Below are positions 18,140 through 50,239 of a DNA stretch of 64,000 nucleotides, piece by piece (the stretch's first letter is position 1; each line of letters starts with the position of its first letter). The DNA lies in NCBI GenBank assembly GCA_016647705.1, contig CM028326.1, positions 17,113,901 to 17,177,900 of the forward strand, written 5' to 3'. Origin of the DNA: Eucommia ulmoides. Its lineage: Eukaryota; Streptophyta; Magnoliopsida; Garryales; Eucommiaceae. Under the pieces are notes generated by a model. That model was not told the origin of the DNA, searched no databases, and saw nothing but the letters and a program-made list of their open reading frames with translations. The position numbers and the translations under genes are program-made.

Positions 18140-18874
18140 CTCTCTCTCTCTTAATTCCGCGTCCCCAATAAAAGTTGTAATTCAGCTACATAAAATATTA
18201 CGAGATCGAAAGGTGTTGCATGCCACATATTATATCTGAAAGGAGTGTTTGTCTTAAGTTCAAATAAATTATTAGTGAGTGGGTAGACCATCCAAAGAAT
18301 TCATGTTTCTTTATGCGTTTTCAGTTGACATTTCTAATTCTACTACTCGGTATCCATCGGGAAATAGATTATCATTATGACTCAAGCTGTTCCTTCGTGT
18401 CCACACCGTGTACACATTTCGTATGTGGGCCTCGGTCGGTATGTTTTTCTGCCAGATGGCAGCTTCTAGTACGTGCTGATGAGAAATATCCCTCGTCATA
18501 ATTGCAACATATGTGAATAATTGAATATGTGCTTCGAATACAATTTTTTTGGAGGAAAAATTAGCCGGTGCACTCATAATTAGCCTTAATCTATCAATAA
18601 AATCAGCTTATGATTTATCGAACAACGTAGTCCCTCGCCGGATTTACTGTGCACAAATCAATCCCAAATTCGCTTACCGTACATTTTTCGGTAATTGATT
18701 TGCCCCTCCGTTATACGCACAAATAATTTCTATTTTTAAATCCGGTTTTTCAGTTGTGAAAACACACTCTAAATACCAAATCATGACGATTTTTTTTTAA
18801 TATACATTGCATTTCGAATTTCAAAATCAAGAAATCATCGTGGACGCAGAGAGAACGATCGAATCAGAGCAGCT
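18140..18874. other. Spacer between the MYB relic and the MULE
   Basis: Contains the region upstream of the MYB relic (a CT run at 18140-18155) and the probable 5' end of the MULE. A minus-strand open frame of 88 codons at 18311-18577 resembles nothing I know and is not called. I could not identify a MULE terminal inverted repeat here. Confidence 0.4.
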
Positions 18875-19212
18875 ATGGAAAGGCAATTGATGTATCATTT
18901 CGAGCCGATCAACAACAGGTAATACACATCCTCATTTGATATATGCCAATCATAGTGATTTTACAGACATCTTAATATCAAGTTAGGGTTTTTCGATCGC
19001 AACGTGTATAAAGACCTAGTTTTTTGTTGATAAAGTTTTTGTTGTCGAACATACGTGTACGAAAATGCTTTACGAATGGATGATACAGTGTTTTTAGTTG
19101 TGGATCGACATATATAGTAATTTTTTGGATGATTCAGGTTGATTCACAAGCACACACGGTATATGCGAAATGAAATGCAGTACATAACGCACATAACGTT
19201 GTACATAGAGCA

Positions 19213-19554
19213 TGTTACATGTAACATAAGCATAATTGTTTGTTGATGTACATAATGTTGTACATATAGCGTGTTACATTCTTAGGGCGTGTTACATTTT
19301 TAACAAGAAAAATGTGCGTGTTACATGTAACATAAGCATAATTGTTTGTTGATGCACATAACGTTTGTACCTATAGCGTGTTACATTCTTAGGGCATGTT
19401 ACATTTTAACAAGGAAAAAAGGGCGTGTTACATGTAACAATAAACATAATTGTGTGTTGATGTTACATTGTAACATCTTTTTTTAAGAACGGAGGCGTGT
19501 TACATGTAACATCGATACATAATGGTGTGTTATATGGTGATATTACATGTAACA
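19213..19554. repeat. TGTTACATGTAACA cluster 1 (intron 1 of the transposase gene)
   Basis: Exact palindrome at 19213-19226, 19319-19332, 19426-19439 and 19498-19511. Near copies lie at 19461-19475 (one base longer) and 19541-19554 (one mismatch), with half sites (GTGTTACATT) in between. The spacing is roughly 70-105 bases, and units share flanks such as ATAAGCATAATTG and TAGGGCGTGTTACAT, so this cluster arose partly by local duplication. Confidence 0.92.
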
Positions 19555-20788
19555 AATTTATTTTTTGCAAAAGAGAGGGGGATCATGTGTTCTGATGGTT
19601 ATTGGTTGGGAGCATTTTTCGATTGCATGCATGTGCAAGTACGAGCGGGTGAATGCAGTTTTGAGGATTGCCAACAACAACAACATTAGTGATTTGTGTA
19701 ACAAGATTGTAAGCAAATAACCAAAATTAGCTAAGTCAAAATTTGACTTGTCATACGCATTGCATGGTCATTCTAACTGCATGCTTGCTGACTAAAGTGA
19801 CTATGAGGAGATGATGTTGCTAACAGATCATTAGAATATTGAGTTGTTGGATATATGCATCCAGAGAAGACTGAACAATTTTAGTGGATCGAATGGTACA
19901 TCAACAAGCGCCACTTCATTGTTAAATAGTAGCGAAGACAGCAAAGATGAACTTGACTACATAGGTAGTTACGGAAACATATTGCACCAGAGTAACGATA
20001 GGGTATTATTGTCATCTCAGTGGGCTAATGGGATCCAAAAGAAGGGTAAAAAATTTAGAGGCAGAACAAGCGAATTCTGGGATGTATTGAAAAGATATGC
20101 AATTGAGATTGGATTTAGTTTCTGTTATTTAAAAAACGACAAAGTGCGTGTGACAGCTGCATGTGCACTTAGAAAGGAAAAGAAATACCCATGATTTGTG
20201 CACGGACATGTAATGCGGGAAAATGGTATATTCTATATCCAAAATTTGGTAAACAAACACACATGTGGGTCTACACTCCGCAAAAACAAAAACAAACGAA
20301 TGAGCTCGGAGATTGTTTCTGGTTGTTTAACTGATGACGTACGGACAAACCCGAAAACGCTCCCTGTTGATGTAGTTGACAATTTCAAGAGGCAATATGG
20401 TATTGAGATCTCGTATAGCAACGCGTGGCTTGGTGTAGAAAAGGCCAGAAACAACGTGTTTGGGGATTATTCAACATCATATAACTAATTATGATGGTAT
20501 GTTGATAAATGTAGACAGACGAACCCTGGGAGTCATGTTACACTCGACTATGATGAGGACACAAGACATTTCAGACGTCTGTTTTTCGCATTCAAAGCAT
20601 GTATTTACGGTTTCTGCTTCTGCCGACCAATGGTGTTCCTTGATGGAACATTTCTTACCGGCCGATATAAAGAAAATTTATTAGCTAAGAAGGCAAAAGA
20701 TGGTAACCAAGGTCCTGTCAGTAAATGTTTTTCATATTTAGTGTATAGTACAACATTTTTTTTCCCTGACACTAAACACTTAAATGTA

Positions 20789-20823
20789 TGTTACATGTAA
20801 CAATATATTTTTTACATGTAACA
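20789..20823. repeat. TGTTACATGTAACA pair (intron 2 of the transposase gene)
   Basis: Exact copy at 20789-20802 and a one-mismatch copy at 20810-20823, inside the short intron (20712-20869) that splits the catalytic domain. Confidence 0.9.
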
Positions 20824-22122
20824 TATGTTTTATTGATTGAGATTTTTGTGATTGGGTTGATTTTCCAAGGATGTTCCCTATCGCTTTTGCAATTGTTGAT
20901 GCAGAAAATGATGAGAATTGGAATTGGTTTATGTCTGAGTTCAGAAAGATTGTTGCGGCAGATCTTGTGATCACGTTTATATCAGATCAGCATAATGGTA
21001 TATTAGAGGGAGTACGGAATATATTCTCACATTGCCACCATGCATACTGCCTATTGCATTTAAAGATAAATCTGAGGGCTGCAACGGCTGGGAGAAACAC
21101 CGCACTCAAGGAATTAATGATTCAAAAACTGAGCGGGTTGGTGTATGCACACACACCAGAAGTTTATAAAATGTTGTATGATAAGATAATGTATGATGGC
21201 GGAGAAAAAGTTCAGCGATTCATGCATGATCTTTCTGCAATGAAATTCAGTAACGTTTTTTTTTGGGAAAAACGCTATGGTGAAATGACATCAAATATGG
21301 AGGAATGTTTTAATTCTTGAATAAGTGAATATCTTCATTTGCCTGCATTATTATTGATTGACAAAATTAGAATACGGTGGATGGACTTAATGTCTGATAG
21401 GAGACAAGAATAAAAAAATATGGACGGTGAGATAACACTGTTTTGGGATAACAAGTTGTCCGATTTGATTAATGAAGGAAGAACATGGAATATCAGCTCG
21501 TTTGGCGATGGATTTTATGAAATTTATTCATCCCCATCAGCGCTAGTTGATACGCTGGGACGATTATGCTCGTGTAGACATTGGCAGATAAAGGGGTTCC
21601 CTTCCATACACGGTTGTGCAGCGATTAACAATGGTGCCTTGCCGACACATGATTAGATAGAAGGATACTTCAACGTCAATTTTTACCGTGAGACCTATTG
21701 GAGAGGAATATATGCAATCCCGACAATTAAACGACCTGTGTGGGTTGAGAGCGAAGCAATTATATTACCACCATTATCAAATAAGCAACCGAGTCGACCA
21801 AAGAAAGTAAGAATACCGTCAAGGGGTGAGATAAAAGAAAGAAAGTGTGGGAGATATGAAAAAATGGGGAGACACAACAGGAAGACATGCAAAGTCCCGT
21901 TGGTGTAAGACTGAGTTATATCGAGAAATTCCGTTTTTGGATTCGAGAGTAGACAGTTGAATTTCATTTTTTTTTTTAACAAAAACAGATTTTGTTATAT
22001 CTAGTCATTGACATTATATTCAAAAATGGAATAATAAATGTTTTGTTTGCATTCTATATTTTTTGTAATTGTGTTTGGTGAAGTCGTTGATGCTATTTTT
22101 TCAACACGACAATAATGTGATT

Positions 22123-22231
22123 TGTTACATGTAACATTATTTGTATTTTTAAACGTTTTTTTTTTTTCATTCAAAATAATGTTACATACAACATCAATGC
22201 AGTACTAAATATTGCATGTAACAATGTTACA
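22123..22231. repeat. TGTTACATGTAACA cluster between the two MULE genes
   Basis: Exact copy at 22123-22136, then degenerate copies at about 22173 (TGTTACATACAACA) and half-site pairs to 22231. The intergenic stretch 21909-22498 holds no gene. Confidence 0.85.
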
Positions 22232-23102
22232 TTTTATATAAGTCACGTAATAAAATGCGTAACATAGGATTACATCCCAAATTAAACCGTCATTTGATAA
22301 CTTGTCAGGGAAAAGATTTTTTTTTTTTTTTTAAATAATGTGTTTTGGTATTCACGTCTTATTAGCATAACCAATCCTCAGTTTGGGAAAGGAGAACCTT
22401 CCATATTCCCTAAACGATCGAAACCCTAACGTTCTGCAATGCTGTCGCCTATCATTGTCGGTCTCTGTAACCTTGATTTTTATATCAATTAGTTCACAAT
22501 GCTGTCTACACGGAGGAAGATGATCACTAAGAACCCCAATCTTGCGGATGATCCTGTCAACCTTTCCGACGCAGGTAAGATTGATGCAATTTTTTACGAC
22601 AATCTCAACTGTTTCGGTGTAGAAATCAGACGATAGGTCTTAGTCTACGCGTTCGGACTTGTAGTTTACATCATGCAACCGTATATTAAACATTTAGAAG
22701 TGGTAATTTTTAGTTGTTGTTGTGCGCGATAGAGTCCTGTTTTGCATATTACGTTTTGTGATTTTTACACATGATATTACGAATTTTTAGTGTAGCTGTA
22801 TATGTCCGGTGATTTCGCCATACAAGTACGTCAACATGATTTGGATCGATTTTTTTCGTGCGCAGTTACGTGATTTCGCGGTACATTATGATTTATCTAT
22901 TGTCGTGACAATACGCCAGTCACAAAGCACATATATTTGGTGCAAATCATTTTTTAGCGGATATTTGAATAACTGATGCTTAGTGTGTCAATGTTTATGT
23001 TATTTTGAATCACGTCTCTTGTTTATCTATGCTATAGTAGTGGGAGAAACAATTAAGTAGTACTTCATCTTTGACAATGTGTTTCAAAATTTTGTGCACA
23101 AA

Positions 23103-23399
23103 TGTTACATGTAACATTTCAGTTTATTATTGGTTTTGTGTACAAAAGTTTGATTATCTGTTGTTGGAAATATAACATCCATGCACGAAATGTAACACCA
23201 GTGTACTTCAAATTTGTCGATGTTTCAAATTTGTTCATAGATGTTACATGTAACATTTTCAGTTATTCTTTTTTTTTTCCTACAAAAGTTTTGATTTAGT
23301 TGTTGTTAGAAATGTAACATCAATACATGAAATGTAACATTAATGTACTTTCATTTTTTTCGATGTTTCAAAATTTGTTCACAGATGTTACATGTAACA
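23103..23399. repeat. TGTTACATGTAACA cluster (intron 1 of the Ulp1-type gene)
   Basis: Exact copies at 23103-23116, 23242-23255 and 23386-23399, about 140 bases apart. They sit in diverged repeat units that also share TACAAAAGTTTGAT and TTGTTGGAAAT-like flanks and single ATGTAACA half sites. Confidence 0.92.
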
Positions 23400-24849
23400 T
23401 TTCAGCTATTCTTGTTTTTGTATACAAAAAGTTTGATTATCTATTGTTGGAAAGAGAATTACAATGTAGGAAATGTAACATTTTTTGTCATGGGGCTTTA
23501 TGCATTAATATACATTGCGCAAATGACACATTACCTACCGTTGATGCTCATGACACACCAATAAGCGCAGCTGACATTGAGGATCGTAAAAAAAAAAAAA
23601 TTTACACAGTTCTTTTTTGCTTTATTTTCAGAAATTGGAACATTTTAGTATCTATTGATTTATGTGTCTTCTATTTCAGGGAAACATGTTCCAGATGTGC
23701 CAATAGCGTCAACAAGCAAAGCAGCAATAGGGACAACAAGCCAAGCCTCATCAGGACCGATCAAAAATCGATGTAACCTTTCACAAGTCTCATCCATCAT
23801 CCATGATTTACACCTATGTGATGAAAATATATTTTATTTACGTCGCACCCCATTTTGGAACACCATGAAAGCACTGATGAACTATCAAGATAATAAGGTT
23901 TCTTTCCATCGCATCGATACTCTGATCGTGAATATTATCTAGTGTTATCATCCATAGAAAAAAGCATTCAAACTGGGGCCACAATTCATGGAGTTCACAA
24001 GCCATGATGTGCAACTTATTTTTAGTTTGCCACACGATGAAGTACAATTGCCCGAAAGGTACACAAAGAAGGAAGACTATGTATTCCAAGCACGATAAGG
24101 TTTAAAGAAGAACAAGGTAAGTGTTGTACAGTTAAAGACCATGATATATGCGGCCATCAAACGCAAAGACGAAGAAAATATGAAAGATGTTGTTTGACTA
24201 TTGTGTATTCTTTTGTTGACAATCTGCTTCTTCAGTAATAAGGAGCAGTATGTTCGAGTATCAGACCTGAACATTGTCGAGGATTTGGATGTTATGGAAA
24301 CTTACAAGTAGGCTAACGCCATTCATTCAAATTTGATGTCATCAATCGAATCTGGGTATTAGAGATCGAGCTCTGTAATTGGATGTGTCATTGCTTTGCA
24401 GGTAATAACAACTGCATTAATTTTTGTAGTAATTCTGTATAATACATAAACTTTTCTACAAAATGTATTTGTTTGTTTTTTTTTCAGTTTTGGTTGTGCG
24501 AACACTCAAGGTTGATCCCGCCAGTGGCATCAAGAATGGTTGTAGTCCCTCGTTTTTTAAAATGGGACATGATGGAATTGACATCGATTGCTTCCAGATT
24601 AGATTTGAAAAATTTAAGTGTTGACCAGGTGTGTTTTGTTTTTCCTAGTTTTTTGAAACGGGATATGGAGACAACGATGTCGGCCGACCCTGGATTGCAC
24701 AATTTAACTACATATCACATGGTTTTTTTTTTATTGATGTACAAAAAATAATGTTAAATGTAATACAAATTGGTATGATGATTTTAACGAAAACGAAATT
24801 TGTTAAATGTAACACAATTTTTGTTACATTTAAAAACAAGGTACAAAAA

Positions 24850-24863
24850 TGTTACATGTAACA
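24850..24863. repeat. TGTTACATGTAACA single copy (intron of the Ulp1-type gene)
   Basis: Exact copy in the intron between the WLCEHSRLIPP exon and the coiled-coil exon. Degenerate half sites (TGTTAAATGTAACA and similar) precede it from about 24750. Confidence 0.9.
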
Positions 24864-26148
24864 CAATCGGGGATGGGGGGGTTGTTTTAGTGTATTTCTA
24901 ATATATAACATTTTTTTTGCACGTTTTTACTGATGAGTTTAGGTTATTCGGCGACTAACGTCAAAGTTAGTGTCAGAGCTCAAGGCAGGTGTCTTACTAC
25001 CTGTGCACGGTGACACAGAGATCAGTTCCTCCAATTCAAGTGCTAAGATTAAGGGAAAATAAGAGGTGTCTGTTGCTGACAATATGCCATCCTTAGATTT
25101 GTTAATATCGCAGCCATTTGATCAGGACGTTGTTAAATTTTCTGGAGGTTCATAAAATTTATCAGATCTTGTTAAAAGTAATCAGAAACTATTACAGAAG
25201 GTTGATAAGGTAAGGGCAAAGCGCAAGAAAATGAAGAGAAGAATGACAAAAGAGATTCAGCATCTGGAAGGTGAGATAGAGCGTATTGGTGATGAGAAAA
25301 ACCAATTGCTGACTGAGATAAAGAGGTTGATGGAAGAGAAAAAGAAAATAAATGAGAAGTTAGTAGAAGCCGAAGTTCACAATATTACGCAATAAGAGAG
25401 GATGGTGGAAAAGCTTGAAGAAGTTGTTGTGCATTCGGTAACATAGTCAGTAGAGAAAGAGAGGGAACATACTGAAAAAATGACTGGTCTGATAAAGTTT
25501 TACCAGTATGAGCTCGAAGACAAAGACAACATGATTGTCAAGTAAGCATCAATCATTGTTGCCTATAATTCACTGCCAAGGACGTCAATTCTAGCAAAAC
25601 TGAAGCTTAGGCGTGGTACGCATACAAAGGCTGAAACCAAGACACCAACTTCACTTGTAAAAAACATCAAGAGTCGCATTAGGACACAGAAGACTGATGA
25701 TGACTCAGTCCACAAAAATAATGTACTTGTCGAGAAACCGTGACCATTGAAGAAAAAGTATGATGTACCAATCCCTGATAAGCAAGGAACAGATGATGTT
25801 ATCAAGAGCAATGAGCAAAGTACATTGGTCTACAATGGCGATGAACCTCAAGAATTACCCCCACGCAACAGTGCAGTTGCAAGAATGATTGCAGACGATG
25901 ACTGGGACAAACTCAATATGGTTATATGGAAGGATGGACGTGGGTAAGTTTAAGTGTCAAATATGTTATTTAGAATGACGCACATGAGATGTACATCATT
26001 TTATTTTATTTTTCATTTTATTGCAGAGCATTTGTCTGGGGACCAGAATGGGTGTTCGCTCAAGTATCCATTCTTGATTTGATCAGGTTGTTATGGGAGA
26101 CTCAACTCCCAAATATTGTGAGTCACTATTTGTTATAACAAGCGAAAT

Positions 26149-26185
26149 GTTACATGTAAGATTTCATCTGTGATGTTACATGTAA
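26149..26185. repeat. TGTTACATGTAACA pair disrupted by the solo LTR
   Basis: A near copy at 26149-26162 and the first twelve bases of an exact copy at 26174-26185. The LTR begins at 26186. The missing CA and the usual downstream CATT-CAG flank reappear at 35900 after the duplicated target (TGTAA at 26181-26185, TATAA at 35895-35899). Confidence 0.88.
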
Positions 26186-26708
26186 TGTAAGACCCTAATT
26201 TTCGTAGGTGCATATTCATTAGCCGCATTTTAGAACATTTAGAAAATAACGGGGTGGAATATGTCATTTCTAATTTAAATTAAAAGTTTAGGGGTCAATT
26301 AGCAATTTTAAAAATGTTCATTTTAAATTTTGGGATTGAAATAATAACCTAAAGAAAATTGAGGGGAGGTTAATGTAATTTGGGAAAAATTAATTTATAT
26401 ATATATGCATACACACTAATGGGATCAAAAACCAAAAACAAAAAGGAAGAAGGAGGGACGATGTGGCTTCACAAGGGATCAATGAATACCACTATTATCA
26501 TGCATATATATAGATTCATGCATGTTTTTCACAATCCCAACATCTAAAAAGAAGAAGAAGAAACCAGAAAAATAGAAAGAAAGAGATGTGGGTCAGAGGC
26601 GGTGGTGTGTTCGGTTCTGTCGTCCGGCGGCCGGTGAGAATGTATGAGGGTGTGTGTATCGTATGTGTGTATGTGACCATCGGGGGGGGGGTAGCATCAC
26701 CGTTCGGG

Positions 26709-28177
26709 GTGAGACAAGTCGCTACTTACTCTCGCAAGTATACGAGATCTAAGTTTTAATATAGTGGATCTTGAAGATCGGATATCGTTCCCACAGAGAA
26801 AAGTGTGAATAATTGAATACCGCAATTTACGTAGTCTCATGTTATCCTGACGATGGAAGACATGATTTAAAACTAAACTAAACTAAACTACAATTAGTGG
26901 GTTAATCCAAACTAAGTTCATTAATTAGGGATTGATTTCGTTCACTTAATACATGTTTGATTTCGTTCAGTTAACAATAACGGAGTTTAGGTATCGGATA
27001 ATCTCGTTTCGTAAAATCCTCCGCCACCTCTTCCGAGTGTAAGACGGGAGAATACGTGACTTCATGTCGACGAAGAGGTCCTCCTCAATGTCTTAACGAC
27101 TTTAGGATGCGTGAGGCTTGACCTAACGTCATCGATTGCACACTAACTAACGCCCTCCAGAGTCGTTAGGTCGTAACGATGTGTTTATCCTATTCTGAAT
27201 CCAGAGTTACCTCTCCCGAGTGTCAAACCCTAGATTCTCAAATCCAAACCTAATACCATTACAAGCATACTAAGATTGTCATCAAATTATAAACACAATC
27301 GGACTTAAAAGCAACAACCGTTAAAGAAACGTATATTAAACTAAACGAGTATTTACACAACTACATCTTTCCCTGACTAATCTCTAATTACACTAACATG
27401 TTCTTAGCCAATACAACATTAAATTAAGAGGAGATCATCAATATCAACAATAAACATTAAATACAAAGATGGAAACAAGGGAAGAAAAGCCAAATCTCAA
27501 AGTGGAGTAGTCCACTTTCGCCAAAGAACAATCCTCCCGAGCTTCCTCTTCTCTATTGATGAACTTCCTCTTCTAGCTCTTCAAGGATTGGCCAATAACA
27601 CCTCCTAAACTAATCTAATCTACTTCCTAAATTTTCTAAACCTAACTAAGGTGGAAGGAGCTCTCAAAATGTCAACCAAGCCTCCTTTCACGTCTAAGGG
27701 TTTTTTTTAGGTTTGGTGGAGAAAGGGGTTAAAAAGTGGGATTTGGAAAATATCTTCAAAATATCTAAAAATAGATATTTCTGTGCAGAGTATCACCGCC
27801 TAAGCGGTGGTTCACTGCTTAGGCGGTGGCTTAAGTCGGTTAATCTTCTGTCGGATCTTCGCCTAGGCGGTGGTTTCTCTGCCTAGGCGGTGGCTGCTGG
27901 CATAACATTCTGTCATTTTCTCACCTAGACGATGGTTCAACCCTTCAGCACTCCAACATTCTGCCACTTTTCTGCCTAGGCGGTGGTCTTCATTCACCGA
28001 GACTCTGTTTTTCACATTTTGTTCACCGTTTCTCCACCATTTTCACTTGTTTATCGCCCTTTAACGTCCCTTCACCTGTTTTACACTAAAACAAACTAAA
28101 ACACAATTAAATATAACTAAAATGCTTGAAAACTAACAAATTCAGTTTAGAAATAGATAGGTTTTTCACACCTATCA
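26709..28177 (-). repeat. 3' LTR of the Athila-like element
   Basis: From GTGAGACAAGTCGCTACTTA to CACACCTATCA. The terminal TGATAAGGAC of the partner LTR (32576) is replaced here by CCGTTCGGGG-like flank sequence. The CCGCCTAGGCGG cluster lies at 27790-27990. Confidence 0.85.
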
Positions 28178-28193
28178 ATACCCCCAAACTTAG
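28178..28193 (-). other. Polypurine tract
   Basis: The minus strand reads CTAAGTTTGGGGGTAT directly before the 3' LTR start TGATAGG. This is the usual plus-strand priming tract of Athila-type elements. Confidence 0.85.
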
Positions 28194-29949
28194 AATTTTG
28201 CTAGTCCTCGAGCAAAACACTAACACTAAACTAAACTAACTAACGAACTAACCAACTAAAAATGAAAAATTAAACTAACACGAAAGAAGTATATGCATGT
28301 AAATATAAAGTTCAATCGAAATGACCAATTTGTTCCTCTCTCAGCATCCATAAATCAGATCAAGTTCGGGAGGTAACCCATACCAAGTGGTGTTCTAGAA
28401 TTTCAACAATCAATAACAATAAAAACCATTCTAGATCCATTTGAAGTGTGTGTGACAACTCAAATGTGTAACTAGTCAAATACCAGATTCAATTATTCAA
28501 TTGTTAAGCTCATAACTTAAACCGTTGAAGGATTCAGGAAAACCATACTTTTGATTGGAGTCTACTATCCACTAATGTAGGCCCGGATATTCATAGAGAT
28601 CAATAGGGCTTGGTTTCACTTTGGAGAACGACCATGGGTATCATTGGAATTGAAAAAAGCAAATCGTTTTAATTGAATGATACCCAAGGTAAAATCGCTT
28701 ATCGCTATCCTCTCTCATGACCCCACATTCTTAGGATACAATTATGAATAAGAAATGAAGATCGTGTGTATTCACTTGTCGAAAGAAAAGAAAATGAAAA
28801 CTATATTCACCTTCTTTTTTTTTTTTAACAACATATTCCTAAATTAATTCGAATTATTACAGTTTTAGGAGAGTGCAAAAAGAAGTTAGAGAAACACACC
28901 CCCAAACTTATTTGAATTTATAAAATTTTAGGAATATGTAAAAAGAAATGATAGAAACACACCCCAAAACTTATTTTAGGAGCGTGCAAAAAGAAATACG
29001 AAAGTGACAAGTGAATACACTAATACCGAATCAATAAAAATTTATCAGAAACCCGACCGCTCACTTGATTTCTCTCAATTTTGAAAATTAGGCTTAGCGA
29101 CTTTGGTTTAGGAAAAATTTAAATGAAAAGAGTATTTGAACGTTTTCCAAATTGATTACATTATCGGTTTCCACAGGGAAAATAAGGAATGAAAATTTTC
29201 AGGTTAGCTTCAACGGTTCAAGCGAAAAATTGACGGCCTAAATCACGTCTCCGAAATTACCTTACCTAGGATTCCGCCTCAAGTTTTCCCCAAATCAAGT
29301 TCTAGTCTCCTCATTTTCTATCATGAGCTTAATATGGAATAATCAGCGTCTAATTGTTCAGATAATTATACATTGAGTTCAAATGTCGTGCGATTTTAGG
29401 ATCGAGATTATTTTTACCCAATCGACATGTTAAGCACACAAAACACACAAGGAAGGTATTACCCCCGACCTCAATATGCAATTAGGGGATAATTCTCATC
29501 ATCGGGTCTTGGCCCAAATGAACTCAACATCTAATCATGCAAACACATCTTCATACATACACAATTCCAAACTAAATCTAATACTAACATACATAGTTTA
29601 ATCTAACACTAAACATGCAAAAACAAAAATTAAGCTAAACTAAACTAACAATTTAAAAACTAAAACATTTATAACAAAATACATACATAAACATAGATTT
29701 GTACATAAACAAATTTGCATTCTGTTCAAAAAAAATAATAATGGTTCATCATTTTCTATAAAAAATTAAAATGGATGAACATCCACTAAACTATCATCCA
29801 TTCCATACCATCCAGGCCTGAACATGGCAGTGTTCCAACATCAGCGAACCCAATAAACATATAGCATACATGCAAACAAAACAGGTTGAACACATACCTA
29901 GAGAATAAGACTTATTCCCTACTATTCACCTGAAGAGGAATCATCACCG
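28194..29949 (-). other. 3' non-coding region of the Athila-like element
   Basis: No coding sequence. It contains repeated AACACACCCCCAAACTTATTT-like segments (28890-28990), each resembling a degenerate polypurine tract, and is the counterpart of 4141-5560. Confidence 0.6.
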
Positions 29950-31065
29950 TCATCACGTTGGAAAGGAGAGTGTGGTCTCTAGAGCAGATGTGGCGGCACA
30001 GATGGCATCGAAGGGTAATCGTCCATCTCAAGGCCAAGGCCATCCCAAATCTTCCATTGGACTCAATCTTGCTTCCTCAAAAATTGGTCCAGGAAAGAAG
30101 CGATCTCATATTGATTTTGGAGGACGATCTGAAGCTTATTATTTATCCTCTCCGGGGAGTTTTCATCTCAGGCTCCAAAAGGTCCCGCTGTCTCATCTAT
30201 TGACTCTTACCCTTCTCCAGACTCGGGCTCGGCTGCCTCTTGAGCCCCAGTCTTCCACAAGCGGTTTATCTTTGACAGATCAAGTGGAATGATAGGGTCG
30301 CATAGGCTTCCCTTAGATACCGTCACTCCAGAAAGTTGGAAAATATGGGTCAATAGTGATAGAAATGGGAGCCCACCCTTTACCGTTTTCCTAGCATGTA
30401 TGATCGATGAATAGATTAGAAATCCAACATTGATTGGTTCTCCGATTTGAATTTTTGTAGATCAGATAGGTCCTGTCCTTTGAGACGTCTGAAAGATGCG
30501 ACATCGATAGGAGGCTTCCACAAATGAAGTGGTGCCAGATTTTTGGAATTGGCTTTAGGCATTTCATCAAGAAGGTAGTGACATTTGGCCCTTGGTGTTT
30601 CCACTTTACTTGGCCAGATGTGATCTTTTGAATGACCCTATGCAAAGTAGGTTCTTGGCTTTCAAGGGACTCCGGTGCCGAAAGTCCAAAGAGATGATTG
30701 ATAAAGTCTGGGCTGAAGATAATAGGCTGATTTTGAACCCTTGTTTGGTCGTCTACGGCCTCCGTAGAATTAGCATAGAATTCTTTGACTAAAGCAACCT
30801 CGCCTGGGTGTGGCGATATACAAAATTGCTCCCAATGGTGGCTTTGGATTTCTTGTTGAAATTCCGCCGGGAGATCCTCAATCGGACCGAAACCCCATTG
30901 ACGTATGCAGGCACAATATTTTTTATGTTCTTTGAAGTGCTCATCTACTTGTTTTGACACAAAACAGGTGGCATCATAGTCAACGTCGGTCGGCACCCCG
31001 GGGTGTGAACTCGACCCTTCTCCTCTCGCCCTCTTCTTTGCTACCCTCTTTGGAATTTCCTAATA
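29950..31065 (-). pseudogene. Transposase_32-type ORF of the non-autonomous Athila-like element
   Basis: Aligned to the copy at 1-499, the start codon ATG has become ATT (about 31055). The frame then gives KRVAKKRARGEGSS, ATCFVSKQVDEHF, IRQWGFGPIEDLP, EVALVKEFYANS and FSPDFINHLFGLSAPESL. A frameshift in an A run near 30435 switches frame to KIQIGEPINVGFLIYSSIIH and LPFLSLLTHIFQLSGVTVSK, followed by a charged tail with several stops down to about 29950. This fits the putative plant transposon protein family, whose function is unknown to me. Finding the same domain in two copies with the same downstream order shows it is the sole gene of this element family. Confidence 0.65.
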
Positions 31066-32551
31066 ATCACAATCACAAAAAAACCAATACAATCTCATCA
31101 TATATGCACAATTGAAAACCATAAACCTCCCTAATTACTTTGTCAAGAACACATACATCCCAAAACGAACACCCATTTGATTTTTTCAAACAAATTTCAC
31201 AAATGTGACATCCTATCTTAGTTCACATACTCAACCAATGCAATTAAACATGCTCATTACCAAGAATCAAACCAAAAACCCATGGAACTTCGGAATCGCA
31301 AAAATAGGGTTAAGGGGTTTTGGGCAAAATTTCAAAATTCAATGATTTCTTTGATATAATCATGCAAACCAACTAATAATTTCAAAAACTAGACTAAATG
31401 TAAAGTAAAATAAAGTTACTTGTTGAGAATTAATGGTCCAATCGAAAGAGAATGAAGAAATCGCACCGTTCACGGAAAACCCTAAATTTTCGAAAATAGG
31501 GGTGGAGATCCAATTCTTGGAGGTTGAATCGTGATAGAAATTACTACTTTTCATAATGGAAGGATGATTTTGGAGTATTAGAACGGTTTGGAAGTGAGGT
31601 TTTAGAGAGAATGTGGAGGATTTTTGGGGAGGGAACCTTGCGATTTCAATTTTGAACGAATGGGTTCTTTTTAACTGCAGAAGGTCCACTGCTTAGGTGG
31701 TGGAGCCCTTTTCTTTAAAATCAAACCTTCGAACGAAATTCCGCCTAGGCAGTGGTTTTTCCGCCTAAGAGAAATTACACCAGTGTGAAAACATTTTATT
31801 CTGCTACTAATCCTCCTAGGCGGTGGTTTCTCCGCCTAAGCAGTGGAGCGTATTTTCAAAATTTGTTGCATCCTGTATTTTTACCGCCTCACCGCTTAGG
31901 CGGTGGGCCGTTTTTTCTAAAAAACACACAACCTGTATTTTTATCGCCTAAGCTGTGGTTCACCGCTTAGGCGGTGGGCCTGCATCTCCTACTTTTTTGT
32001 TTTTCTCAAATTTTCAAAATACGGCTCCACCCCGTACGTTTTCACTTCGCTTGTTCAACGTGTTTAAACTTAAAATACTTCCCCAAGCGTCCATACTCCT
32101 AAATTCAATTCTGAATGCGTTTCGAAGCCATACTGGCTTCCAAAAAGAATAAATAATCAAATAAACAGTGACAAAAATCGGGTAATTTGATACCCTAAGT
32201 TTCATTTCAAAAAACCAAATGTAGCGCTTGAGTTACCGTCCCTAGCTAGCCTTTCGTGTTACTAAGTATTTTTCACCAAAATTCCCCATAGACAAGGAAT
32301 TTGGGCTCAAATGCTCAGTAGGATCAAGATCATGGCTTAAAGTCGGCTTCTCCTCTCAGTCCTTATCATTTGCAATAAGTTCAATCTCGGGATTGAGAAT
32401 TAAGAATTCCAATCTTCTTCATCGTTTCTTACACTGCTTGATCTCATTAACACAATGAAACAAAAATTAAAATTAAAAACAAAACAAAAATAAATGTCAA
32501 AATTAACACTCGACCACTTAGTCGCAATATCAACTTAAAATTCACACTAAT
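31066..32551 (-). other. Leader of the Athila-like element with CCGCCTAGGCGG-type motifs
   Basis: Non-coding. Eight or so copies of the motif (CCGCCTAGGCAGTGG, CCGCTTAGGCGGTGG and variants) cluster at 31685-31985, so the motif occurs in both the LTRs and the leader of one element. Confidence 0.7.
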
Positions 32552-32569
32552 TCCCCGGCAACGGCGCCA
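32552..32569 (-). other. Primer binding site, perfect tRNA-Asp match
   Basis: The plus strand reads TCCCCGGCAACGGCGCCA, identical to the 3' end of plant tRNA-Asp as I know it. The LTR edge is at 32576. Confidence 0.88.
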
Positions 32570-32575
32570 AAAACT

Positions 32576-34064
32576 TGATAAGGACGTGAAACACGCCGCT
32601 ACTTACTCTCGCAAGCATACAAGGTCTAAGTTTTAATATAGTGGATCTTGAATATCGGATATCGTTCCCACAGAGAAAAGTGTGAATAATTGAATACCGC
32701 AATTTACGTAGTCTCATGTTATCCTGACGATGGAAGACATGATTTAAAATTAAACTAAGCTAAACTATAATTAGTGGGTTAATCCTAACTAAGTTTATTA
32801 ATTAGGTATTGATTTCGTTCACTTAATACATGTTTGATTTCGTTTAGTTAACAATAACGGAGTTTAGGTATCCGACAATCTCGGTTCGTAAACTCCTCCG
32901 CCACCTCTTCCGAGTGTAAGACGGGGGAATACACGACTTCGTGTCGACGAAGAGGTCCCCCTCAATGTCTTAAAAACTCTAGGATGCGTGAGTCTTGACC
33001 CAACATCATCGATTGCACACTAACTAACGCCCTCCAGGATCGTTAGGTCGTAACGATGTGTTTACCCTATTCTGAATCCAGTGTTACCTCTCCCAAGTGT
33101 CAAACCCTAGATTCTCAAATCCAACCCTAATACCATTAAAAGCATACTAAGATCGTCATCAAATGATAAACACAATCGGACTTCAAAGCAACAACTGTTA
33201 AAGAAACGTATATTAAACTAAACGAGTATTTACACAACTACATCTTTCCCTGACTAATCTCTAATTACACTAACATGTTCTTATCCAATACAACATTAAA
33301 TCAAGAGGATATCATCAATATCAACAATAAACATTAAATACAAAGATGAAAACAAGGGAAGAAAAGCCAAATCTCAAAGTGGAGTAGTCCACTTTCGCCA
33401 AAGAACAATCCTCCCGAGCTTCCTCTTCTCTATTGATGAACTTCCTCTTCTATATCTTCAAGGATTGTCCAAGAACACCTCCTAAACTAATCCAATCTAC
33501 TTCCTAAATTTTCTAAACCTAACTAAGGTGGAAGGAGCTCTCAAAATGTCAACCAAGCCTCTTCTCACTTCTAAAGGTTTTTATTGAGGTTTAGTGGAGA
33601 AAAGGTTTAAAAAGTGGGATTTGGAAAATATCTTCAAAATATCTAAAAATAGATATTTCTATTTAGAGTATCGTCGCTTAAGCGGTGGTTTACCGCTTAG
33701 GCTGTGGCTTAAGTCGGTTAAGCTTCTGTCGGATCTTCACCTAGGTGGTGGTTTCTCTGCCTAAACGGTGGCTGCTAGCATAACATTCTGTGATTTTCTC
33801 GCCTAGGCGGTGGTTCAGCCCTTCTGCACTCCAGCATTCTGCTTCTTTTCCGCCTAGGCAATGGAACTTCCGCCTAGGCAGTAGTCTTCATTCACCGAAA
33901 CCCTGTTTTTCATATTTTATTCACTGTTTTCACTTGTTTATCGTCTTTTAACATCCCTTCACCTGTTTTACACTAAGACAAGCTAAAACACAATTAAATA
34001 TAACTAAAACGCTTGAAAACTAACAAATTCGGTTTAGAAATAGATAGGTTTTTCACACCTATCA
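32576..34064 (-). repeat. 5' LTR of the Athila-like element
   Basis: 1489 bp from TGATAAGGACGTG to CACACCTATCA, giving near-inverted ends TGATAGG and CCTTATCA. The motif cluster lies at 33665-33880. Confidence 0.88.
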
Positions 34065-35160
34065 GTGGCCATCATTGGAGGGGGGCTTACATCGCCATTC
34101 GAGGTGTGTTTCATCATGTATGTATGATCGTTGTGTGCGGGTATGTGTGTTCTGTTCCGTTTCGTCACCGGTGTGAGTATGTGTGGGTGGGTTCTATTTA
34201 CCGGCGGAGTGTGGAGGTGATCGGTAGGTGCATATGTGTGGTTAGTTGAGTGTGTTATGTTCTATTTCCTTATTTGTGCATGTGTGTGTGCTGTTCATCG
34301 TCGATTGCGTGGGTGTGTGTGTGATCAATCGTCGTTCGCCGACGTCCATGTGGGTGTTTAATCGTCGTTGGTAGTCCGGCGATGTGTGTGTGTCTTCTGT
34401 GATAGTGTATGTGTATGTTTCAACATGTATGTGTGAGTGTGTGCTCTGATCGTGAGGAATGGACGGCGAGTGAGATCGTTGGAGCTGGTGAGGATAAAGA
34501 GAGAGAGGCGGCCGGCTGCTAAAACTAGGAAACAGAACAGAAAAAGGGGAGCGTTCACTGCAGCGGTGAGGTTCAGCAAAGCAGGAAAACAAAAATCCAA
34601 AAATCCAATTTCTCGGCCTGCAAGCGATTCGAAACAGGTAAACTTTTAATCGGGTATTATTATCAATTAAATTAAATTGTTAAGTATTAAATTTTTTGCA
34701 ATCGTAATAGTAATTCTCGTAATCGTGATAGTATATTTATAATCGTTAATCTTAATAAATTGGTACAGTAAATATTAACATAATGGAATGATGTAAATAG
34801 TAATTTTGGCATAATTAAATTTAGGGAAGGGGAAATAATACCACTTAGGGCCATGCATTGCATATTAGGTTATTTTAAATAAAATATTAATTTAGGCCTA
34901 TCATTATTAGGTTCACAGGCGCTAGCGTCCCGGTAGGTTTTGGACGGTGATATTTTTGTAGTGCGAAAATCGAGGTGAGTGTACAGTCTTCTATGTAAAT
35001 TTACAAATCTTATTTTTGTATAAATTGTGGGAAATGCGTTTATTTAAAATAGACAATTTTGTAACTTATATGGATCAAGTTGACTTTGGTTTTAAAAGGT
35101 GGAAAATGATTTTTTGATCAAGTGGGTTTTAAATGTGATTTTTGTCCAACTATGCCATAG

Positions 35161-35322
35161 TTTTTCTTCTCATTAGATGGGTATGACCTACGAGATGTGG
35201 ATTTTCTTCTCGTTAGGTGGGTATGACCTACGAGATGTGAATTTTGTTCTCATTAGGCAGATATGACCTACGAGATGTGGATTTTCTTCTCGTTAGGCAG
35301 ATATGTCCTGCGAGATGTAGAT
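35161..35322 (+). repeat. Four 40-base tandem repeats in the solo LTR
   Basis: The unit is TTCTCGTTAGGTGGGTATGA plus CCTACGAGATGTGGATTT, repeated four times at exactly 40-base spacing with a few substitutions. A diverged set occurs in reverse orientation at 63410-63570. Confidence 0.85.
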
Positions 35323-35912
35323 TACCTGTTAAGCAAGTCTTGGAGGGTGGATTGACCTATCAGGAGTGCAAATCCTGCAGGTAGTACCCCTACTATGGAG
35401 GATAATTAATGGCCTTGGCACTGATAGTCACTTTAGAAGGCACATTTGTACAGGTTATAGTACCGTTGCAACTCCCGATCGTAAGGTAAAAACGATCATA
35501 TGGCTAGTAGGAAAGTGGTGTGGAGTATTTTATTATACGATGAACTGCCTGAATTGATTTGACCTAGATATATTATTTTAAAATGGATTAGCATCAATAT
35601 ATTATTTTATTGCACTAGTTGATTTAAAATATTTGAATTGAGTGTTTTAAATATATGAGTTATTTAAGTGGTGACAAGAAAACTGGATTTTCGTACGGTA
35701 TTTGATTATATAATATTATATTTTTGGAAATAAGTAAAAGGTATTATTTTTTTGAGAAAAAAATATTGACAGCGATACGCGTGCGTCTGAGTTTGTATGT
35801 ATATATATGTATGTGTTTGGTTAGTTGGTCAGGAAGTGTCATGCCGACATCAAGCCCTGTCTCGGGTGACAGGTGCCCGGTGTAGGGTGTGACATATAAC
35901 ATTCAGGTGTAA

Positions 35913-36012
35913 TGTTACATGTAACATTTGATAGTTTACTTACAGCCCGCGATATTTTTTGCAATGTCACATGTAGCGTAACAAAGCCTAAAAATGTATG
36001 TTACATGTAACA
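35913..36012. repeat. TGTTACATGTAACA pair after the solo LTR
   Basis: Exact copies at 35913-35926 and 35999-36012, with a degenerate one between (about 35966). They belong to the same intron as 26149-26185 before the LTR inserted. Confidence 0.9.
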
Positions 36013-36110
36013 TGCAACACGATTGTCATGTTACTTACACGTTCTGTGTTTATTTAGAAATATGCAGATGATTATAACATTATGTAGGTGATTAATAAAA
36101 CATTTTTTAG

Positions 36111-37020
36111 GTTATCAACGGATGTATGGATATGATATGTCTTGATCAAGCAAGGGTTGCAAGTGATTTAAAAGGGATTGGTCATGATTTGCCAAATCGA
36201 TCATATTTTATCAATAATTGTTGCTGGGTAATCAAACTGTTACATTGTTTTTTATATTTTTTTAGTGTGTTTTTATGTTTTTTGTTTGATTTGCATGCAC
36301 ACATTGCATGTTACTAATTTTTTGAAAAGTTTTACAATATATACAGTTTTAGATTACACAGGGGGGCAAGAAAGTATTGGCTGACAATCTTAACCCAAAA
36401 ATTATAGAAGCATTTTCCGACAACTATTGATTCGTGTATTTTCCAATAAATACTGTAGGATTGACATCATCAATGGGACATTGGACACTACTTGTTTGTG
36501 ATAAGCAGGAGCAAAAGTGGACACACTACAATTCGATCAACCTACGACGTCCCGGAGATGTTGATAGATTTTATGAGAATGCAAAAAGACTTGTGAGTTT
36601 CAATACATAGTTTTGAAGCTTTTGTTGCCAGTGCAATGTCGAATGAATAATCCTCACTATTTTTTTCCATGTTCAAATGTAGGTTCGTTATGTTGATGCA
36701 TTATTGTCAAAGGAAGCTAGTGAATATCAACTGTTGGATGCTAAAATTTCAAACTCAAATAATGTGCAAGATTAGGGATCATCTGTGTAGGTGCACTTCA
36801 TTTATTACTAATTAATTATGTTACCTAAACACAACCAGTTATTGATGAATTCTCTTAACATATTATATTTCGCAGCGTTGATTGCGGTGTTACTATAATC
36901 CATGTTATGAAGAGCATATTCAACAATGTACAAATCAACCTTAATTACGGCATTGAAGGTTTTAGAAGAGAAAGAGCAGCACTCGTGCATGAATTCTTCA
37001 ATGATCCACCAAGATCTTAG
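36111..37020 (+). pseudogene. KAONASHI-type gene, 3' part: Ulp1 (C48) cysteine protease domain
   Basis: Exons 36111-36227 (MDMICLDQARVASDLKGIGH), 36362-36592, 36683-36786 and 36876-37020 join in one frame with GT-AG introns. GHWTLLVCDKQEQKWTHYNS carries the catalytic His; the Asp of the usual YDS is Asn here. GSS followed by VDCGVTIIHVMKSIF carries the catalytic Cys after a Gln-Asp pair (VQD) that fits the oxyanion Gln. The family cleaves SUMO or related modifiers. The protein ends LVHEFFNDPPRS. Two stops, TGA in DNY*FVYF and TAG after VQD, plus the Asp-to-Asn change, predict no activity. It is separated from its 5' half only by the nested LTR in the intron 26118-36110. Confidence 0.85.
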
Positions 37021-37354
37021 ATTTTAGATGACTTCCAAACAAGAAAAAATAACGAAACACGTCGTGTTGAAGAAGCATAGAACAACTGGAAAATTAGAGT
37101 TTTGATGTGTCTAGATTAGAACAAATTGCTTTTCAATCTATCTTTGTTTGATTTAAACATCATACATAGCTATATTTCATTTTTTATGAAAGGTATAATT
37201 GGTATGGTTGTTTGTGTTGTGTAAAATGCAACACAACTATTTTTGGATGCACGAACTATTATTTTGGTGGGTTGACACTTCTTTGCAACATTTGGGTTGC
37301 ATCTCAGAGACACGAACCGGAAAAAACTGACAAATTTAAGAACTACCGATTGAA

Positions 37355-37745
37355 TGTAACATGTAACATTTTCCAAATACAATCACATTCTTAGTTTCAA
37401 AATGTATGTTACATGTATCATTGTCATGGACACACATACTCAGTAATATTTACATGGATGTTACATGTAACATTTTATAATTCCACACACCCTGGATATG
37501 GAATTATTGGCATGAACACAACGTGCAAATGTTACATGTAACATGAATGAAATCATTGTCATGGACACATACTCAGTAATGTTACATGGATGTTACATGT
37601 AACATTATTTTTTTGCACACCATGGATATGTATGCAACATTTTAACAGATATTACATGTAACATTGAAAATGTTACATGCAACATGATTATAAAATGGAT
37701 GGCATGAATTTTTTACACAAGTATTTTTAAATGTTACATGTAACA
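37355..37745. repeat. TGTTACATGTAACA cluster downstream of the Ulp1-type gene
   Basis: Exact copies at 37459-37472, 37530-37543, 37591-37604 and 37732-37745. Near copies lie at 37355-37368, 37407-37420, 37650-37663 and 37671-37684. This is the densest group in the window. Some units share CATGGACACACATACTCAGT flanks and so are local duplicates. Confidence 0.92.
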
Positions 37746-37760
37746 TCAGTTACATCAAGT

Positions 37761-38978
37761 AAAAAATCTCCAAAAAATGCGATTAGCACCTCATTTCGAA
37801 GAGAATCAAACGCACATAATTTAGTGTTTCAATATTTATGTTTTTTCATATGGAAATATGAGATAAAAATGATACAAAGTGTCCACCATATATTGAAATC
37901 GTTACCATATTTAGATCCCCGAAAAACAAGGGAGGTTAAGCGAGATTTCGGGGATGTTCAGCGTGAGGCGCGACAGTAGGGGCATTCTCGTCACTGAAAT
38001 GGCAAAAAGATTAGGCAGTTCAAGAAAATGTGAGAAGGTTTAATTGGTAGTTTCTTGCGCCTTTTAGGACTGTTCGGTCACCGCCCCGTTTTCTTGTTCA
38101 GAAAATTAGCCGACAAACACATATCAAGGTTTAAATTACCAATTAATATCAACTATTCTAAATTAAATCATCTAATCTCATTAACTTGACTTTTTGAACT
38201 GTTTAGTCCCAAATTCGAAAATTCTGAAATTTTCATGACTAAAATAACCTTGCAAGATTTACGGGAATTAGAATTTCCCTTATTAAACAGTTTTATCAAT
38301 AAAAAATAATTTCCACAAATAACAAGAGTTTTTTCATTTTTCAATTCCTTTCAAAATTAAAAAATAAAAATTGTTTCCACAAATAACAACAAAGGAGAAT
38401 TTCTTTTTCATTTTCACTTTTTCTATATTCAGTTAATGTTATATTCAATACCTGGTAAAAAAATTGAAAGATTTTGATAGTGTGAGACACGGAACATGTG
38501 TATCATCATAGAGAACAAATGATATATTCAACATACACACAAATATGTCAAATATGATTTGGTATTTTGCGAAAGAGATATACCACATTTTTAACAAACG
38601 ATCATGTTGTATGTAACACCAATATTCAAACATAACACTGTATTTTCTCGCATTTGTAATGTATACCAATGTTGATTATAACACCAACACAAAATATGGG
38701 AGATTTTAATCAAGTGGGATAGCGGAACATGTGAAATGATTTCAAATAGTAAATGTTATATTCAACACTCACGCAACTAAAAAGGGTACGATCTAATGCA
38801 TCGTGGAATAAATATATACAGTTAACTAGCACATATTGTAGCGATGTTATATATAACATTAATATCACAGTTAATTTTATATATAACATTCACAGTTAAT
38901 TCATGTTGAATGTAAAATGGATTTTAATCTAGAATTCTAAAAAAATTATTACTATCTCATTTAATGAGCATGATTTAT
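37761..38978. other. Region after the MULE, with degenerate TGTTA...TAACA dyads
   Basis: No gene supported. From 38430 to 38900 several loose dyads occur (TGTTGTATGTAACA near 38604, TGTTATATTCAACA near 38755, TGTTATATATAACA near 38845). They may be an eroded outer part of the MULE or of a related one. Confidence 0.4.
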
Positions 38979-50141: not shown

Positions 50142-50239
50142 GCCTGTGAAAACAACACATTACAAGAATGAACAAATAACCAACAACAAATAGATTTCAG
50201 CCTGCAAAAAAAAAAAACCCAACAATAAACAAGTTTTAA

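Follow-up and report, generated by a model that had tools for sequence, protein, structure and literature searches.

In Eucommia ulmoides, the non-coding DNA of a MULE carries an array of a short palindromic word. We consider it probable that this array serves as a recognition code, within an anti-silencing system that is VANC-like and sequence-specific and has a palindromic site of the dimer type; binding and demethylation are predictions of this reading. The word is arrayed in the non-coding DNA of a whole MULE group and is rare elsewhere, a judgment based on this element and on the 22 motif loci that come first on contig C1. The window, by which we mean the entire stretch analyzed, comprises 64,000 nt (assembly GCA_016647705.1, contig CM028326.1, positions 17,113,901 to 17,177,900, forward strand).

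An initial annotation had described a 14-bp palindrome in 16 exact copies. All 16 are present where it had placed them, compared to none in 100 dinucleotide shuffles, and chance is excluded as the origin of the array. Allowing up to two mismatches, the window holds 34 sites against 0.52 expected, 31 of which lie within 19213-37745. The statement that no copy occurs elsewhere in the window holds for exact copies but not for near copies (≤2 mismatches): two of these, at 38605 and 38845, sit inside an apparent second, truncated element of the same MULE group, whose 5’ end is matched by the end profile at 38101-38264, and a third, at 62182, is isolated in the window at this threshold. The palindrome itself was confirmed, but the full word is longer than 14 bp. 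Among 64 exact sites an outer A and an outer T are each present in 91%, giving a 16-bp word, ATGTTACATGTAACAT, composed of two TGTTACA half-sites. Single half-sites are also present inside the element.

The absence of the word from recognizable exons was borne out, with zero overlap between the coding stretches, drawn by eye and covering 44% of the element, and the 16, 24 or 30 sites inside it (0, 1 and 2 mismatches). Under independence this has P = 9e-5, 8e-7 and 2e-8, respectively, values that are overstated because motif copies cluster. The 16 exact copies fall into only 11 flank groups, with eight of the 16 in three tandem-type groups; local tandem duplication therefore made part of the array. 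One further copy is split by an LTR-type insertion, as the annotation had proposed, and the insertion contains an inner element with direct repeats 91.4% identical over 1,488 bp.

Table 1. Features of the MULE element in the window (positions are those of the window).
Feature	Position	Strand	Basis or remark
Left 9-bp target-site duplication, ATTTTTTTG	18543..18551	+	7/9 match with right copy
MULE element, ~9.8 kb plus 9.7-kb LTR-type insertion	18552..38087	+	End-profile matches
5’ terminal region common to group, degenerate terminal inverted repeat	18552..18718	+	End profile
Four exact copies (19213, 19319, 19426, 19498) upstream of transposase, three in ~107-bp tandem units	19213..19511	.	Exact search
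Transposase gene containing stops; pieces of DBD_Tnp_Mut, MULE and SWIM	19895..21905	+	Domain matches
Non-coding gap read as transposase intron, motif copies 20789 and 20810	~20741-20840		
Intergenic copies: 22123 exact; 22180 and 22210 with 2 mismatches	22123..22223	.	
Three exact copies in 139-144-bp tandem units	23103..23399	.	
Second gene, DUF1985-like part, broken frames	23679..24640	+	Similarity to relative R1
Motif cluster: 24850 exact; variants 24801, 24752, 24822	24752..24863	.	
Second gene, coiled-coil and basic part	25072..25945	+	Similar part in R1, R2 and GA-type relatives
One-mismatch copy 26148; left portion of split copy 26174	26148..26185	.	
LTR-type insertion, TG..CA, 5-bp duplication TGTAA/TATAA	26186..35894 (approximate)	+	
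Right part of split copy; 35913 and 35999 exact; 36006 with 2 mismatches	35895..36019	.	
Ulp1 (Peptidase_C48) domain of second gene, containing stops, in pieces taken as exons	36353..37080	+	Pfam
3’ array: 37459, 37530, 37591, 37732 exact; 37355, 37407, 37650, 37671 with one mismatch	37355..37745	.	
3’ terminal region common to group, ending CGGTCACCGCCCC	37975..38087	+	End profile
Right 9-bp target-site duplication, GTTTTCTTG	38088..38096	+	

The element ends were recognized by profile matches at 18554-18718 (E 3.5e-34) and 37975-38087 (E 3.8e-27), with the window’s own ends among the profile input, and the bounds of the target-site duplications were set by comparison with relatives having perfect 9-bp duplications. 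Matches to the 5’ profile were also obtained at the 3’ end, on the opposite strand (window 38078-37997, E 8e-10; locus L019, E 7.7e-12), and the ends are thus degenerate inverted repeats, to be set beside the non-TIR ends that characterize KIU/KAONASHI-type MULEs. An unrelated MULE family is also found in the window, and this one family is without the word.

The window’s transposase has a MULE domain above the Pfam cut-off (E 6.4e-11), together with DBD_Tnp_Mut (E 2.3e-5, 24.4 bits against a cut-off of 25) and SWIM (E 0.018) matches below it; in R1, a full-length relative that has 24 motif copies and whose 9-bp duplication is perfect, both the MULE domain (E 3e-9) and DBD_Tnp_Mut (E 3.2e-9, passing its cut-off) are found. 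The second gene had been read as encoding a DUF1985/Ulp1-type protein. Its Ulp1 part stands, above cut-off in translations joined over pieces from the window (E 8e-6, 26.3 bits, cut-off 20.7) and from R1 (E 1.1e-6), but DUF1985 was seen only below threshold and only in relatives: it is the best family in R1 (E 9e-4 and 0.0016) and is also found in L034 (E 0.027), and the Pfam search of the window copy gave no DUF1985 match. The window’s DUF1985-like part is 74% identical to that of R1 over 219 aa, and that of L034 is 42% identical to its R1 counterpart. Stops or a frame shift interrupt the second gene in the window copy and in R1, the two in which intactness was assessed, and the gene is inverted in both GA-class coding copies read (L016 and L034; this class is described below). 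A search of a protein collection for relatives returned nine candidates, none at E 1e-3. KIU/KAONASHI-type VANDALs with an Ulp1-bearing VANC protein were reportedly described by Sasaki and colleagues in EMBO J in 2022. The KAONASHI label given to this MULE rests on the Ulp1 domain and the literature rather than on phylogeny.

The array had been thought to belong to one MULE, a view that the genome rejects. The 14-mer occurs 6,566 times in 947 Mb, roughly 570-fold more than the 11.5 copies expected from base composition, while the reversed-word control occurs twice. Nor is the word equally frequent outside these MULEs in the part sampled, which is the first part of C1 (C1 and C2 for one listing) and not a random draw from the genome: of the 22 C1 loci introduced above, 20 are members of this group, 19 with group ends and one, L016, as a coding relative. 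In the first 20 of these loci, group ends lie beside the motif at E < 1e-7 in 18 and at both ends in 14, one 3’ match (L018) being weak at E 0.0022, and L033 adds one more. The 14 two-ended elements (17,760 bp) contain 41 of the 48 exact copies, and the remaining 182,240 bp of these 20 loci hold seven, in L010, L011, L012, L015, L016 and L021. Relatives of the element have 9-bp target duplications, some of them perfect. Two observations concern other sources. A motif pair is present in two viral contigs, which carry an identical tandem duplication and no additional copies in the stretches examined. The 14-mer is also contained in a tobacco small RNA with different flanks, a match that is probably coincidental.

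Non-autonomous copies retain only the ends and the motif arrays. This arrangement could mean that the word is a binding site for the transposase or an accessory protein in transposition, akin to the subterminal repeats of other DNA transposons, and that it may aid the movement of these reduced copies. Subterminal 12-bp tandem repeats are described for the Aedes MULE Muta1 (PMC5225508). The positions of the copies argue otherwise, and we regard this explanation as unlikely. In the 14 two-ended elements the terminal repeats contain no motif copies (≤1 mismatch); the distance to the nearest copy is 329-748 bp at the 5’ end and 170-527 bp at the 3’ end, some ends being hand-set. Moreover, in the window element and R1 the copies are scattered over non-coding DNA across ~10 kb.

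A sister class of elements with similar ends carries a second word, TGTTGAATGTAACA (the GA word), a composite of one TGTTACA and one TGTTGAA half-site that is present in 16,912 copies genome-wide against 15 for its control. The GA/GA site occurs 1,634 times against 1, so that the two half-sites are found in all three combinations (AC/AC 6,566; AC/GA 16,912; GA/GA 1,634). Because the sites are built of two half-sites in all three combinations, the idea of a dimer, which the initial annotation had drawn from the palindrome, gains support. The one-step intermediate TGTTGCATGTAACA has 390 copies against 2 for its control. Simple decay is an unlikely source of the second word, TGTTGCATGTAACA being ~40 times rarer than the two-step word, in a genome-wide count that covered TGTTGCATGTAACA of the two one-step neighbors, TGTTGCATGTAACA and TGTTAAATGTAACA.

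Word class follows lineage: on a tree of the ends of 22 elements it changes three times, compared to 6.7 times in shuffles (0.35% of which have as few), when two-ended elements are labeled by their commoner word and a tie (L008, one of each) is counted as GA. Against our favored reading, three of 39 clusters mix the two classes. Seven GA loci, five clusters and two longer stretches picked for their many copies, were read. A palindrome has no orientation, but the GA word does. In those elements that could be oriented, 50 of its 57 copies point one way; some of the elements were oriented by weak ends, and four (L010, L011, L015 and L021, which are one-ended) had the other bound set by hand. L030 and L032, which were given no orientation, do not enter this count. 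No group end was found at L030, or in the 2.4 kb read at L032, which has one palindrome and five GA words. Neighboring GA words are alike in orientation in 57 of 70 cases. We tentatively propose a half-site code in which TGTTACA and TGTTGAA, combined head to head in three kinds of site, address sister MULE lineages by their combination and are read by homodimeric or mixed-dimeric proteins. Specificity could then shift by the swapping of one half-site, with the shared half-site bridging the old and the new system.

The word might instead be the site of a host transcription factor, acquired as a promoter or enhancer. Its size would be ordinary for a dimeric factor, and the single half-sites inside the element fit such a reading. 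The word is nevertheless concentrated in one MULE group in our sample, and a second word in a sister class with a rare one-step intermediate is consistent with a factor changing along with the element. Four exact copies in the window precede the first gene and four follow the second, a distribution that argues against a promoter or enhancer, and we find this explanation improbable, more so than a role in transposition.

The full-length relative R1 retains the word, and its 5’ motif group has eight exact copies where the window has four; the motif tandem repeats therefore expand and contract. Conservation of the word above its flanks is seen when the window is compared with R1, where 10 of 15 exact window sites are kept against 14% of 3,306 control 14-mers, and with a further relative, R2, where eight of 10 are kept against 18.7% of 1,662. 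It is not clear between the closer pair R1 and R2, in which exact-site retention (seven of nine one way, seven of 12 the other) shows a small excess over the control (45.8%) and identity is 93.1% in motif columns and 93.2% in other non-coding columns. Across five elements identity is 88.4% in motif columns compared to 72.1%, a difference biased upward by the picking of columns for matching the word. A neutral origin of the array through tandem duplication, as the tandem-type flank groups and the larger R1 5’ group might suggest, is very improbable given eleven flank groups in the window, a word kept where flanks are not (window against R1 and R2), and its recurrence throughout the genome.

Helical spacing of the motif sites is not clearly supported. 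For palindromes, R was 0.276-0.285 at a period of 10.5-10.75 bp (n=75), where 0.10 is expected, and a second test gave p values of 0.068 for GA (n=56), 0.96 for GA/GA (n=10), 0.17 for palindromes (n=22) and 0.017 pooled (n=88); several periods were tried, related copies are not independent, and the palindrome sets of the two tests overlap.

The reading of the array as a recognition system is thus partly supported, by the distribution of the word, its above-flank conservation in R1 and R2 relative to the window element and its half-sites, while the binder and the effect of binding are what we infer. In the anti-silencing system that we favor, the second-gene protein, with its DUF1985-like, coiled-coil and Ulp1 parts, would bind ATGTTACATGTAACAT as a dimer, one subunit for each TGTTACA half-site. 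With many sites in introns, intergenic DNA and leaders, the element and its non-autonomous copies would reach a high local occupancy, and the bound protein would keep DNA methylation off, leaving the MULE group expressed and mobile. If this is right, VANC-type self-protection would extend past the Arabidopsis motifs into a large genome that holds sites by the thousand, and half-sites would offer a concrete route by which a transposon could change its recognition word. Protein-target co-evolution would become testable with two discrete words, two sister classes and one rare intermediate. Targeted removal of DNA methylation in plants is a further prospect, for which a palindromic address word confined largely to a single transposon group offers a candidate handle.

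A system of the kind proposed is already known from VANDAL elements, and what may be new is the architecture of the site. Motif arrays in non-coding DNA, their evolution by tandem repeats and their divergence between related elements have been described in Arabidopsis (Hosaka 2017, PMC5735166). Like VANDAL21 (Hiun), which encodes VANC21, the MULE group described here combines a transposase with a DUF1985 protein (sub-threshold in our case) and shows short non-coding motif arrays, tandem-repeat expansion, concentration in an element group and different motifs in related elements. The VANC21 motif, YAGTATTAY, is 9 bp long, non-palindromic and in one orientation (PMC5735166), unlike the 16-bp palindrome of two half-sites found here or the asymmetric composite of the sister class; a further difference is that thousands of sites occur here. 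The Ulp1 domain in the second gene is shared with KIU/KAONASHI-type VANDALs, whose VANC protein has such a domain and which recognize motifs in their own group’s elements according to a 2026 review in Genome Biol (PMC13317346). Muta1 (PMC5225508) resembles our group in that short words are repeated both in the MULE and in the non-autonomous copies derived from it, and differs in that its repeats lie within the terminal repeats, whereas ours are internal and occur throughout the non-coding DNA of coding elements. The palindrome and GA classes parallel VANC6 and VANDAL6 (PMC5735166) as a second specificity within a related group. No common half-site is described for the VANC6 words, AGTTGTCC and AGTTGTAC, and the VANC21 word, whereas both classes here share TGTTACA.

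The 14-mer TGTTACATGTAACA occurs in the window in 16 exact copies where none is expected, every one lying where the initial annotation had placed it, and 34 sites are found at up to two mismatches, against 0.52 expected. By flanking sequence the exact copies form 11 groups, three with more than one member (table) and the remaining eight copies each standing alone. When the window is taken together with 20 loci, the bases adjoining 64 exact sites are A in 91% and T in 91% of cases, so that the full word is the 16-bp ATGTTACATGTAACAT, a perfect palindrome like its 14-mer core. Copies lie 5' of the transposase gene, within a gap in that gene that we read as an intron, between it and the second gene (with DUF1985-like, coiled-coil, basic and Ulp1 parts), between the pieces of the second gene and 3' of it. 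As had been claimed, no copy extends into the coding stretches that we drew, and one is interrupted by an LTR-type insertion (9.7 kb; nested inner element, repeats 91.4% identical). The transposase gene matches MULE (E 6.4e-11) and, slightly below the cut-off, DBD_Tnp_Mut (E 2.3e-5), while the C-terminal part of the second gene exceeds the curated cut-off for the Ulp1 protease domain (E 8e-6). Stops disrupt both genes, and the 9-bp duplications flanking the element match at 7 of 9 bases.

Features of the window (contig C2, 17113901-17177900) and of related loci; window positions unless a contig is named
Feature	Position	Strand	Remarks
MULE element	18552-38087		bounds guided by relatives with perfect duplications
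5' end profile match	18554-18718		E 3.5e-34; profile made from this element and five relatives, so own end included
3' end profile match	37975-38087		E 3.8e-27; own end likewise included
Flank group 1	19213, 19319, 19426		exact copies
Flank group 2	23103, 23242, 23386		exact copies
Flank group 3	37459, 37591		exact copies
Open frame, 222 aa	30391-31059	-	within the LTR-type insertion
Second group 5' end	38101-38264		E 1.9e-11
Distinct MULE-like gene	47480-50159	-	SWIM E 4.2e-8; open frames 312 and 492 aa
Solitary group 3' end	52739-52854		E 6.4e-9
R1, full-length relative	C1:32181664-32192156		perfect duplication ATGATATTA
Pairs with TTCAAAAAGGTTATGATGAATTTCGTATCATTAATG-type spacer	C1: 24323256, 29963435, 37120834		
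Pairs with TTCAAAAAGGTTATGATGAATTTCGTATCATTAATG-type spacer	C2: 417898, 755736, 5246762, 11282000, 13002960		

The second 5' end starts 13 bp past the 3' end of the first element. By eye, the element that it opens seems to be broken near 38985 by an insertion that came later; this element would explain the two-mismatch copies at 38605 and 38845. No neighbouring 5' end was found for the solitary 3' end. The distinct MULE-like gene holds no motif copy at up to two mismatches, and is 25-29% identical over ~110-aa stretches to the transposases of R1 and of L016, a coding copy of the sister class treated below.

Initially ascribed to one MULE, the motif is more widespread than that: across a genome of 946.67 Mb in 391 contigs, whose transposons resemble those of plants, there are 6,566 copies, each counted once since the word is palindromic, against 2 of the reversed word and 11.5 expected from the base composition of the window. 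The first 50 places listed, all on contig C1 and thus not a random sample of the genome, represent 22 loci, 20 of which were examined as 10-kb pieces and two as 2.4-kb pieces. Ends like those of the window element (E <1e-7) adjoin the word in 18 of the 20, with both ends present in 14 of these 18 (the 3' match of L018 is weak, E 0.0022). At L012 the ends are weaker and kilobases off, and L016 has a transposase of the group (62% identical) and Ulp1 parts in place of ends. One shorter piece (L033) has both group ends; no group end lies within the 2.4 kb of the other (L032). The two-ended elements measure 1.06-1.71 kb, and neither the transposase pieces nor those of the coiled coil or the C-terminal Ulp1 part have a match in them. 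Six of the 14 are flanked by perfect 9-bp duplications (L005, L006, L008, L019, L020 and L023, the last once its end is shifted by one base). Their arrays are central: 329-748 bp separate the 5' end, and 170-527 bp the 3' end, from the nearest copy at up to one mismatch. The motif array is real, strong and larger in extent than first described. In 14 of 50 listed pairs the two palindromes are set apart by similar spacers (TTCAAAAAGGTTATGATGAATTTCGTATCATTAATG and variants), marking a tandem-type subfamily among the motif carriers.

L016 carries five TGTTGAATGTAACA, two TGTTAAATGTAACA and one palindrome, and a second element at L013 six copies of the GA word (one TGTTACA and one TGTTGAA half-site) and no palindrome. 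These suggested a second class, so we counted the GA word genome-wide and found 8,425 + 8,487 copies against 15 reversed. The remaining half-site combination, TGTTGAATTCAACA, has 1,634 copies (1 reversed), and the one-step intermediate TGTTGCATGTAACA only 390 (2 reversed). Given this scarcity, the GA word forms a class of its own and is unlikely to be a decayed palindrome. None of the seven GA loci examined (L027-L031, L034, L035) contains a palindrome; both group ends are clear at L027 and L028 and weaker at L031 and L029, at least one is present at L034 and L035 (E 1e-6 to 2e-8), and none was found at L030. Among 39 clusters on C1 up to 15.31 Mb, 27 are GA-only, 7 palindrome-only, 3 mixed and 2 GA/GA-only. 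An end-sequence tree of 22 elements requires 3 class changes, against 6.7 in shuffles, 0.35% of which were as low. Being asymmetric, the GA word has a direction, and in the elements to which an orientation was assigned it mostly points one way, 50 of 57 copies reading TGTTACATTCAACA in the direction of the element.

GA-class elements also possess a relative of the second gene. In R1 this gene matches Ulp1 (E 1.1e-6), and its central part gives sub-cut-off matches to DUF1985 (E 9e-4) and PMD (E 0.019). Identity to R1 in the GA-class copy L034 is 42% for the DUF1985-like part and 39-40% for the coiled-coil and the basic part; in L016 the coiled coil is 43% and the Ulp1 pieces 31-62% identical, and its transposase 63% in the core and 36% in the N-terminal part. 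The second gene runs against the element in L034 and L016 and with it in the window copy and R1. Given this reversal and divergence, the word class is associated, in the few copies compared, with both the order of the genes and the divergence of the second one.

The motif was also compared with its surroundings in relatives. R1, with non-coding DNA ~84% identical to that of the window element, has 24 exact palindromes, and R2, a second coding relative on C2 (10 kb examined, 5' end outside), has 12; neither has the second word. Where an exact window site has a gap-free alignment, R1 retains the exact word at 10 of 15 places and R2 at 8 of 10; the corresponding rates for non-coding control 14-mers are 14% (of 3,306) and 18.7% (of 1,662). 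Conservation above the flanks, proposed initially as a check, is thus seen between the window element and both relatives, but there is little excess within the closer pair, R1-R2, where 7/9 sites are kept in one direction and 7/12 in the other (45.8% for comparison) and identity is no higher in motif columns (93.1%) than in other non-coding columns (93.2%). In five aligned non-autonomous elements, motif columns are 88.4% identical against 72.1% elsewhere, a figure favoured by design, as columns were picked for matching the word. Because of this bias and the small R1-R2 excess, we hold with moderate confidence that the array is a VANC-like anti-silencing recognition system, and leave a slight chance that it is a by-product of tandem duplication. 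The initial interpretation as a recognition system is kept as the most likely reading; the pattern of the array matches VANC systems, and the putative binding and anti-silencing are argued by analogy.

By title or abstract, we found no report of the motif among the papers listed for VANC, VANDAL, DUF1985, Ulp1, KAONASHI or palindromic motifs, though a palindromic VANC site may have been published. A text search for the 14-mer matched solely two tobacco small-RNA papers, in excerpts of which (PMC3237444, PMC3306195) a small RNA, ATTGTTACATGTAACACTGGC, includes it. Its near-identical sisters have TGTAGCAC, so the match is probably a coincidence.

Hosaka 2017 (PMC5735166) and Sasaki 2023 (PMC10398659) describe VANC systems of Arabidopsis VANDALs in which a protein encoded by the MULE binds to arrays of short words in its non-coding DNA, with specificity from copy density, fast word turnover via tandem repeats, and different words in related elements. 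A 2026 review (PMC13317346) describes KIU, VANDALs with an Ulp1-bearing VANC that recognise motifs of their own kind. The overall pattern is the same in the MULE group studied here. The site itself differs: it is a word with two-fold symmetry built from two half-sites, a symmetry that points to binding by a dimer, and in the sister class one half-site is replaced.
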